Positions 44,169 to 45,595 of a stretch of 64,000 nt of DNA are shown in pieces (the stretch's first letter is position 1; each line of letters starts with the position of its first letter). Position numbers and translations under genes: made by a program. The stretch is from an uncultured Candidatus Peregrinibacteria bacterium. Its GTDB lineage: Bacteria; Patescibacteriota; Gracilibacteria; Peribacterales; Peribacteraceae. The notes under the pieces are model-generated. The model had not been told where the DNA came from and did not search any database. It worked only from the letters and a program-made list of their open reading frames with translations. The DNA lies in the NCBI GenBank assembly GCA_903854335.1, contig CAINVY010000005.1, positions 62,001 to 126,000 of the forward strand, written 5' to 3'.

Positions 44169-44196
44169 TTGACTTCCCCCCACTCCATCGTAAAAT
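44169..44196 (+). promoter_or_regulatory. promoter of the ilvA leader
   Basis: TTGACT (44169-44174), 16-nt spacer, TAAAAT (44191-44196). Confidence 0.65.
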
Positions 44197-44205
44197 GCTC
44201 TCAAC

Positions 44206-44256
44206 ATGCATCGATCCACCATTATTATCAGCATGAGCATTCCACGCATGGCGTGA
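44206..44256 (+). CDS. ilvA leader peptide (putative attenuation peptide)
   Basis: 16-codon frame MHRSTIIISMSIPRMA ending TGA, starting 9 nt after the -10 box. It has Ile codons ATT ATT ATC in a row plus a fourth ATT, and a Thr just before the run. It is followed by an intrinsic terminator 25 nt later and then by ilvA, the first enzyme of isoleucine synthesis. That is the layout of ribosome-mediated attenuation: stalling at Ile codons when Ile-tRNA is scarce would favour read-through. The function is inferred from layout. Confidence 0.65.
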   Translation: MHRSTIIISMSIPRMA

Positions 44257-44280
44257 GAAGTAGTTGCTGCTCTCTACTCT

Positions 44281-44302
44281 CCCGCGCCGAAGCGGGTTTT
44301 TT
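44281..44302 (+). terminator. attenuator terminator before ilvA
   Basis: CCCGC, loop GCCGAA, GCGGG, then TTTTTT, located 19 nt before the ilvA ATG. Upstream AGTAG/CTACT (44259-44263 / 44274-44278) and CACGC/GCGTG (44243-44247 / 44251-44255) can form earlier hairpins. Confidence 0.7.
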
Positions 44303-44320
44303 ATTTCTTCTCGCATTCGT

Positions 44321-45595
44321 ATGGACTCTTCGACCTCCACGCCTTCGCTCCGAGATATCCGCGCGACCCGCGATGCGTTTCCCGACGCTCTCGTCCGCAC
44401 GACATCCCTAGCGCATAGTAATCGATTGTCCGAAACGCACGGCATGAACGTTCTTCTCAAGCGGGAAGATGAGCAACCCGTTCGTTCCTACAAAATCCGG
44501 GGTGCTCTCGCGAAAACGCTGTCCCTCTCTCCAGATGAGCGGCAGCGTGGAGTCGCAGGCGCGAGTGCGGGCAATCACGCGCAAGGAATCGCAGCTTCCG
44601 GCGCACACTTGGGAATTAATGGAACCATCTTTATGCCGCGTATCACGCCTTCGCAAAAAATCGATGCGACCAGACGACGCGCGGGCCCCTGGATGGAGAT
44701 CCGCCTGGAGGGCGACACCTTCGACGAAACCGCACGCATCACCCAGAGGCACTGCGATGAAACGGGCGCAACGCTCATCCATCCGTTCAATGACATCGAT
44801 GTCATCAGGGGCCAAGCGACCGTATCCCTCGAGATCTCCGATCAGATTCGTGCGATGCGCGAACGTCTCGACGCGGTGATCGTCCCCGTTGGAGGCGGCG
44901 CTCTGCTCGCCGGAACGATTCTCACGCTGCGAAAAACGAATCCGGATGCACTGATCTTCGGCGTGGAGCCGGAGGGAGCGGACTGCATGGCACAGTCCGT
45001 GGACGCGGGTCAACCCATCACTCTCTCGCGCATCGATACGTTCGTGGACGGGGCAGCGGTCGCGAGGCCGGGAGACCTGACGTACGAGATCGTCGCGCAG
45101 GCAATTGCCGATGGCAGGGTACGGCTCCTGAAGATTTCGAAGAATCAGCTCTGCGCGGCCATGGCAGATATGCTGCAAATTGATGGAATCATCACCGAAC
45201 CGGCCGGCGCTCTCTCGGTCGCCGCGCTCGATCAGATCGCTTCGCTCATGCAAGGGAAGAACGTCGTGAGTATCGTGTCCGGGAGCAATTTTGACATGCG
45301 ACGCATGCCGAAAATTCTCGAACACGCCGATCTCCATCGACGCACCAAAGCATATCTTCAGATCGTCCTTCCCGACCGTCCGCAGGCACTTGCCGAATTG
45401 CTTGCCCATCTGGATGCCCCCAAACAATTGAACATCACGTTCTTGCGTTATGACGACGAACACGCCGAAGGCACCCCTCCACTCAACGTGGGATTTGAAT
45501 CGAAGAACGGCAATTCAGCCGACATACTCGCACTGCTTGAGTCATTGGATGCGCATCAGTACTCCTACCAAGAACTTACCGGGAAGCCCGAATGA
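44321..45595 (+). CDS. ilvA: threonine ammonia-lyase (threonine deaminase)
   Basis: 424 residues. PLP enzyme converting threonine to 2-oxobutanoate, the committed step to isoleucine. PLP lysine in RSYKIRGAL, Gly-rich phosphate loop PVGGGALLAG, SAGNHAQG and a C-terminal SGSNFD. The last ~80 residues (YLQIVLPDRPQALAELLAHL...) form an ACT-like regulatory domain, consistent with a biosynthetic enzyme feedback-controlled by isoleucine. Preceded by the leader peptide and attenuator. No ilvBCDE in the window. Confidence 0.93.
   Translation: MDSSTSTPSLRDIRATRDAFPDALVRTTSLAHSNRLSETHGMNVLLKREDEQPVRSYKIRGALAKTLSLSPDERQRGVAGASAGNHAQGIAASGAHLGINGTIFMPRITPSQKIDATRRRAGPWMEIRLEGDTFDETARITQRHCDETGATLIHPFNDIDVIRGQATVSLEISDQIRAMRERLDAVIVPVGGGALLAGTILTLRKTNPDALIFGVEPEGADCMAQSVDAGQPITLSRIDTFVDGAAVARPGDLTYEIVAQAIADGRVRLLKISKNQLCAAMADMLQIDGIITEPAGALSVAALDQIASLMQGKNVVSIVSGSNFDMRRMPKILEHADLHRRTKAYLQIVLPDRPQALAELLAHLDAPKQLNITFLRYDDEHAEGTPPLNVGFESKNGNSADILALLESLDAHQYSYQELTGKPE

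Follow-up and report, generated by a model that had tools for sequence, protein, structure and literature searches.

The Escherichia coli ilvGMEDA operon, which has ilvA among its regulated genes, is preceded by a leader (ilvL) whose peptide is rich in Ile codons and whose RNA can form overlapping terminator and antiterminator structures. The ilvL ORF has 32 codons in the annotated operon, tests Leu, Val and Ile together and heads a full operon. A leader-peptide ORF that begins a leaderless transcript reportedly acts as an attenuator in Sinorhizobium meliloti trpL (peTrpL). It contains Trp codons and precedes trp genes, and its peptide also acts in trans (PMC7298713). Among known systems, the Corynebacterium glutamicum ilvBNC attenuator (leader MTIIRLVVVTARRLP) comes nearest; the start codon of its short peptide (15–16 residues, rich in branched-chain codons) is adjacent to the transcription start, and the RNA has three alternative hairpins, namely an anti-antiterminator, an antiterminator and a terminator (PMC11857589).

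A leader of this kind lies upstream of a lone threonine deaminase gene (ilvA) in a 64,000-nucleotide stretch of genomic DNA (hereafter, the window). It is very probably a ribosome-mediated transcription attenuator that senses the supply of isoleucyl-tRNA and controls this single gene. The leader is shorter than ilvL, and like the trpL leader it is predicted to be leaderless or nearly so. In contrast to C. glutamicum ilvBNC, where mixed Ile/Val/Leu codons control a multi-gene pathway (PMC11857589), the codons here are for Ile only and the predicted target is a single entry enzyme; moreover, there is no pathway, the phylum is different and no Rfam model matches. A search of the open-access literature, in which absence is weak evidence, found no report of attenuation or leader peptides in Patescibacteria, CPR or Saccharibacteria. 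The attenuation mechanism is a known one; what is new is the phylum, the portability of the leader between non-homologous genes and its occurrence in organisms without the pathway. How Patescibacteria regulate their genes has hardly been studied. The present attenuator has support across a single family, requires no regulatory protein and relies on a leader peptide that is probably leaderless.

Organization of the leader and its genomic context

The genome containing the window (G000) is 1.17 Mb in size and 96.6% complete. Among named relatives of the window IlvA, the nearest (71% identity) comes from a MAG of an uncultured Candidatus Peregrinibacteria bacterium, which bears out the placement in Patescibacteria made from the sequence in an earlier note on this DNA. 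According to the translations, the gene order is pyrE (minus strand), leader, ilvA, rsmG, rlmE, an ftsE-like gene and purM. The putative threonine ammonia-lyase contains a normal PLP-enzyme domain (PF00291, PALP, 226 bits) with the PLP-lysine motif SYKIRG; its best NCBIfam match was NF006390 (400.8 bits, cut-off 421), and it scored 382 bits with TIGR02079 (cut-off 440).

The order of elements within the leader is promoter, ATG, peptide, anti-antiterminator, antiterminator, terminator with six T residues, and ilvA (Table 1). The earlier note had described a promoter, a 16-codon peptide with Ile codons, a six-T terminator and ilvA, and on direct reading of the sequence each of them was in place. 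Because the start codon is so near the -10 element, the transcript is probably leaderless or nearly so, and the peptide would then be translated from the very beginning of the RNA.

Table 1. Features of the ilvA leader in the window (positions are those of the window)
Feature	Position	Strand	Basis or remarks
Sigma-70-type promoter, TTGACT-16 nt-TAAAAT	44169..44196	+	10/12 consensus positions; -35 TTGACT at 44169-44174, -10 TAAAAT at 44191-44196, spacer 16 nt
Leader peptide ORF, MHRSTIIISMSIPRMA	44206..44256	+	ATG to TGA, 16 codons and stop; ATG (44206) 9 nt past -10
Control codons ATT ATT ATC (Ile-Ile-Ile)	44221..44229	+	Sequence
Region 1, anti-antiterminator outer arm CAGCA	44229..44233	+	Overlaps Ile and Ser codons; partner 44265-44269
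Fourth control codon ATT (Ile)	44239..44241	+	Sequence
Anti-antiterminator inner hairpin CACGC-ATG-GCGTG	44243..44255	+	Sequence; 44243-44247 pairs with 44251-44255; stop codon within 3' arm
Region 2, antiterminator 5' arm GGCGTGAGAAGTAG	44250..44263	+	Overlaps leader stop codon
TGCTG, 3' partner of region 1 outer arm	44265..44269	+	Own-versus-cross pairing test
Region 3, antiterminator 3' arm CTACTCTCCCGCGCC	44274..44288	+	Overlaps terminator 5' arm
Intrinsic terminator CCCGC GCCGAA GCGGG TTTTTT	44281..44302	+	Stem -9.3 kcal/mol; stem CCCGC/GCGGG 44281-44296, TTTTTT 44297-44302
ilvA, threonine ammonia-lyase, 424 aa (predicted regulated gene)	44321..45595	+	Profile scores

We scanned 1.174 Mb, nearly the entire genome (all except 1.3 kb of contig 11), for the combination of a promoter, a start codon close behind the -10 element, a short ORF and a terminator. 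The locus ranked first among 13 distinct candidates and was the only one in which codons for a single amino acid cluster close to a near-consensus promoter. At the genomic Ile frequency of 5.6%, at least 4 Ile in 15 codons has by itself a probability of ~0.008. The terminator alone is unremarkable (1 found versus 2.6 expected from shuffles of the region), and the fold of the 117-nt leader has a z-score of only -1.15. Promoter, terminator and fold are each modest when taken alone, and the decisive weight in this reading of the sequence comes from comparison and conservation.

Homologous leaders in related genomes

Threonine deaminase was searched for in relatives and throughout the class, and the DNA upstream of the genes was then read. 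Ten genomes had a homologous leader before ilvA (for example, MHRSTVISSSIIIPRPA, MTVRFIQISIISIPRLA, MKRCFIISCIITTRATA, MALRAIISSMIITPATQA and MAQRFMISSMIITPATTA), with a small ORF between leader and ilvA in 4 of the 10. We then built a covariance model of the terminator-antiterminator core, trained on eight ilvA leader sequences only, and ran it on 353 genomes of the class. Strong matches were restricted to one family, and many of them were in genomes that lack ilvA, where the downstream gene was an HMGL-domain synthase of the citramalate/isopropylmalate type. A model trained on ilvA leaders alone had thus located the leader before synthase genes absent from its training set. Weak matches in four genomes (G035, G065, G066 and G067) lay directly upstream of HMGL-domain genes that had been found independently by Pfam.

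From the ilvA and synthase loci we compiled a set of 25 leaders, all from one GTDB family (the window and 24 further genomes); 10 precede ilvA and 15 precede a cimA/leuA-type synthase, and no genome in this set has the leader before both. In all 25, the -35 element is TTGAC[A/T/G], the spacer measures 16 nt without exception and the start codon lies 7–13 nt behind the -10 element. Every peptide is Ile-rich, with 3–6 Ile codons each, and the pooled count (121 Ile codons of 423) has P ~4e-51, a value uncorrected for relatedness. A terminator is present in all of them, although that of G019 was poorly called. The earlier note had suggested checking relatives for conserved Ile codons, which they indeed keep, and had held that relatives lacking these codons or the terminator would speak against attenuation; no such case occurred among the 25 leaders.

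No such leader was seen directly upstream of ilvA in more distant relatives within the class where the DNA was examined (many of these genomes have in-frame TGA), or directly upstream of the short threonine dehydratases of G025, G061 and G073 where examined. When the covariance model was run over 379 genomes spread across the phylum, no convincing match was found outside the family; weak matches in G465 and G571 were rejected since the peptide was absent. An exact-pattern search for ATTATTATCAGC across the order was uninformative. At one ilvA locus (L145, G002), the attenuator core occurs twice before the gene, in copies ~540 bp apart; the second copy is at the 3' end of a 154-aa ORF that ends in GTIIPASSTA and a stop codon, and here a normal gene may serve as the leader for the second core.

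One leader before two enzyme types

The genes behind the leader encode two types of enzymes. One of the leader-linked synthases (G015) passes the cut-off of the citramalate synthase family TIGR00977 (460 bits versus 450), that of G003 is closest to citramalate synthase (288 bits) and those of G082 and G067 are closer to 2-isopropylmalate synthase than to citramalate synthase; several score below the NCBIfam equivalog cut-offs, and the activities named here are those predicted from these similarities. The exchange of one gene for the other can be seen within the genus: in the congener G003, the same slot between pyrE and rsmG is occupied by an Ile leader (MQRRAIIANIIIITPTTA) and a citramalate-synthase-like gene, the gene order being otherwise unchanged. 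Threonine deaminase is not related to citramalate synthase, and each of the two enzymes leads toward 2-oxobutyrate, the specific precursor of isoleucine: IlvA converts threonine to 2-oxobutyrate, and citramalate synthase provides an alternative entry to the same compound. Because the same Ile-codon leader precedes two non-homologous enzyme types, there is strong evidence that it senses isoleucine.

This family also has Leu-rich leaders of similar design, which lie upstream of leuA-type (2-isopropylmalate synthase) genes (for example, MHQRSLLLGLGLLLLTAEGGLRA and MHSRNLFLGLALLLLTAEGRLRA). They occur at nine loci (L160, L161, L164, L167, L168, L169, L170, L171 and L172), are mostly near-leaderless and are followed by a terminator. 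Most of the genomes with Leu leaders lack LeuC.

Alternative folds, covariation and ribosome masking

Three RNA segments can pair in alternative ways. Region 1 (typically AUCAGCA) lies partly within the Ile codons and partly behind them, and its partner, UGCUGA, forms the end of region 2. The portion of region 2 ahead of this partner, GGCGUGAGGAAGUAG, overlaps the stop codon and pairs with region 3; the GGCG of region 2 is invariant in all 10 aligned sequences. Since region 3 includes the 5' arm of the terminator, antiterminator and terminator are mutually exclusive.

RNAalifold revealed little covariation in the antiterminator, whose arms are nearly invariant, and we used an own-versus-cross duplex test in its place. 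For regions 1 and 2, the mean energy of own pairs was -12.46 kcal/mol versus -10.84 kcal/mol (sd 0.41) for permuted pairs, and none of 20,000 permutations was as good; with one leader per genus, the median p was 0.001. Matched changes include CUGCA/UGCAG in G009, GUAGCAGC/GCUGCUAC in G065 and AUCAUCAGCU/AGCUGAUGAU in G080. The near-invariance of the arms leaves no significant covariation between regions 2 and 3 (2,613 of 20,000 permutations did as well).

The effect of a ribosome was then modeled by masking the RNA and calculating how far the terminator 5' arm is paired while its 3' arm has yet to be synthesized. The predicted mean pairing was 0.86 with the ribosome stalled at a middle Ile codon, 0.22 when it stood at the stop codon and 0.50 on ribosome-free RNA. 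The modeled difference between stall and stop was 0.64, versus 0.08 (sd 0.04) in dinucleotide-shuffled controls; for the window leader, none of 60 shuffles reached the observed value. The difference was absent in one of the 25 leaders, probably that of G019, whose terminator was mis-called. This behavior, as predicted from folding energies, is the classical logic of ribosome-mediated attenuation, and the competing antiterminator fold that the earlier note had called for is thus present in the leader and behaves as required under stall and stop masking. In the masked full-length RNA of the window leader, the terminator is predicted to be the minimum-energy state even with a stalled ribosome, so that control would have to be kinetic, depending on the order of events, as in most attenuators.

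The following sequence of events may be proposed. RNA synthesis would begin a few bases ahead of the ATG, and a ribosome would load at once on the nearly leaderless transcript. If isoleucine is ample, the ribosome would reach the stop codon and cover region 2, allowing the terminator to form ahead of ilvA. If charged tRNA-Ile is scarce, it would stall at the Ile codons and mask region 1; region 2 would then pair with region 3, the terminator would be pre-empted and ilvA would be transcribed. With no ribosome on the RNA, region 1 could pair with region 2, favoring the terminator, to an extent that differs among leaders.

Absence of most of the isoleucine pathway

We further checked the genomes for the remaining steps of the pathway. 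When E. coli ilvA, C, D, E, I, H and M, leuABCD and thrB and C were used as tblastn queries against G000, only ilvA was found; no ilvB, ilvC, ilvD, ilvE or leuABCD is present in this genome, and a Pfam search showed that ilvC, ilvD and Aminotran_4 are absent. A weak tblastn match of thrA resembles aspartokinase. With these genes absent, the putative switch governs a lone entry enzyme. The earlier note had stated that peptide, terminator and gene product agree; this holds for the sensor and the enzyme and does not extend to a working isoleucine pathway, the rest of which is missing from G000.

The relatives with the leader also lack most of the pathway. No genome carrying the Ile leader has ilvC or ilvD, and among 74 genomes of the order both genes are confined to G064, and LeuC/aconitase to G064, G025 and G003. 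Aminotran_4 (IlvE family) is present in 15 genomes of the order, none with the leader before ilvA and four (G007, G035, G061 and G086) with the leader before the synthase. One genome assembled as a single contig (G030) has the leader, ilvA and a leuA-type gene and lacks ilvC, ilvD, LeuC and Aminotran_4. G064, which has ilvC and ilvD, suggests that the leaders may go back to ancestors whose pathways were complete, and that leader and committed enzyme were retained as the rest was lost. The missing enzymes are a point against the attenuator reading, since inducing IlvA upon isoleucine starvation would bring no obvious benefit, and the mechanism itself does not account for the retention of the switch.

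Alternative explanations and possible role

The absence of the pathway could mean that the short ORF and the terminator are remnants that no longer regulate anything and represent either a terminated small RNA or a decayed operon leader, possibly a fossil of a full-pathway ancestor such as G064. However, peptide length, Ile codons, promoter spacing and start distance have been kept across many genera, regions 1 and 2 change together with their pairing preserved, and leader and gene have been retained though the pathway was lost, which makes a remnant very improbable. Alternative terminator and antiterminator folds are common to all devices of this kind, including metabolite-binding riboswitches and T-boxes, but a ligand aptamer would leave the conserved frame of Ile codons and the stop codon inside region 2 unexplained, and we give such an aptamer almost no credence. 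Rfam 15 families, T-box and riboswitches included, were rejected, as none reached its gathering score at the locus; the only match with E<1, anti-hemB, was at chance level (13.5 bits versus a cut-off of 49.5).

A different proposal concerns the purpose of the switch rather than the switch itself. The attenuator could be real and IlvA catabolic, converting threonine through 2-oxobutyrate to propionyl-CoA for energy, with isoleucine standing in as a signal of amino-acid supply. Some threonine deaminases are catabolic, and the absence of the remaining isoleucine pathway fits such a role. Yet the same leader heads citramalate-type synthases in 15 relatives and Leu leaders head leuA-type genes, neither of which yields energy, and a catabolic gene would be expected to answer excess and not shortage; we therefore consider an energy-yielding IlvA unlikely. 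Energy metabolism offers no easy explanation for keeping committed steps only, every one of them controlled by the amino acid that corresponds to it.

For the attenuator, one tentative answer, which we think is probably not the right one, is that these host-dependent bacteria keep only the committed first enzymes (IlvA or CimA; LeuA) under attenuator control and hand the product to a host bacterium. The first enzymes of isoleucine and leucine synthesis are committed and normally feedback-controlled. Under such a hand-off, 2-oxobutyrate, citramalate or isopropylmalate would be passed on, and the attenuators would open when the corresponding amino acid is short. The partner would then complete the amino acid with its own downstream enzymes, its own control point having been bypassed, and the attenuator would be a starvation-triggered switch that drives the pathway of another cell. 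An isoleucine pathway likewise divided between partners at 2-oxobutanoate, with ilvA as the relay, occurs in aphids and Buchnera; there, the animal host has ilvA and the bacterium the rest, whereas here the ultra-small bacterium has ilvA and the partner is putative (PMC9890070). The Peribacteria genome paper inferred uptake of external amino acids and does not mention isoleucine, leucine or a leader. As carriers of the leader lack most of the pathway, the question of epibiont-host exchange becomes a specific test at 2-oxobutyrate and citramalate.

Additional leaders rich in other amino acids

Several other leader peptides were observed during these searches. Val/Leu-rich leaders (for example, MRRSVVVSVLLTVAP and MLLNLVTVVVVVVPQG) with a terminator precede at least one small ORF and a gene for a UvrD/PcrA-type helicase at seven loci (L142, L143, L146, L147, L148, L149 and L207); none was found at the helicase gene in the genome of the window. 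For a helicase operon, control by an amino-acid attenuator would be unusual. In leader peptides of both the helicase loci (L146 and L147) and the Leu-rich loci (L164, L168 and L171), a repeat coding for CPELVEG or PALSxVEG has been inserted with the frame intact. Ile-rich leaders MQRSRSIISIIIIPTLGARR and MARLNRFSAIIISHASARR were present at L210 (G062) and L141 (G068) before genes that are neither ilvA nor the synthase. Finally, aromatic-rich leaders, MAQVLSFNGFWFTLFRVGKKSLCLN and MSSKTFTYGNYYSFWFTQRKELLYV, were detected at L203 (G032) and L211 (G010), each having a strong promoter immediately ahead of it and an end that resembles a terminator.
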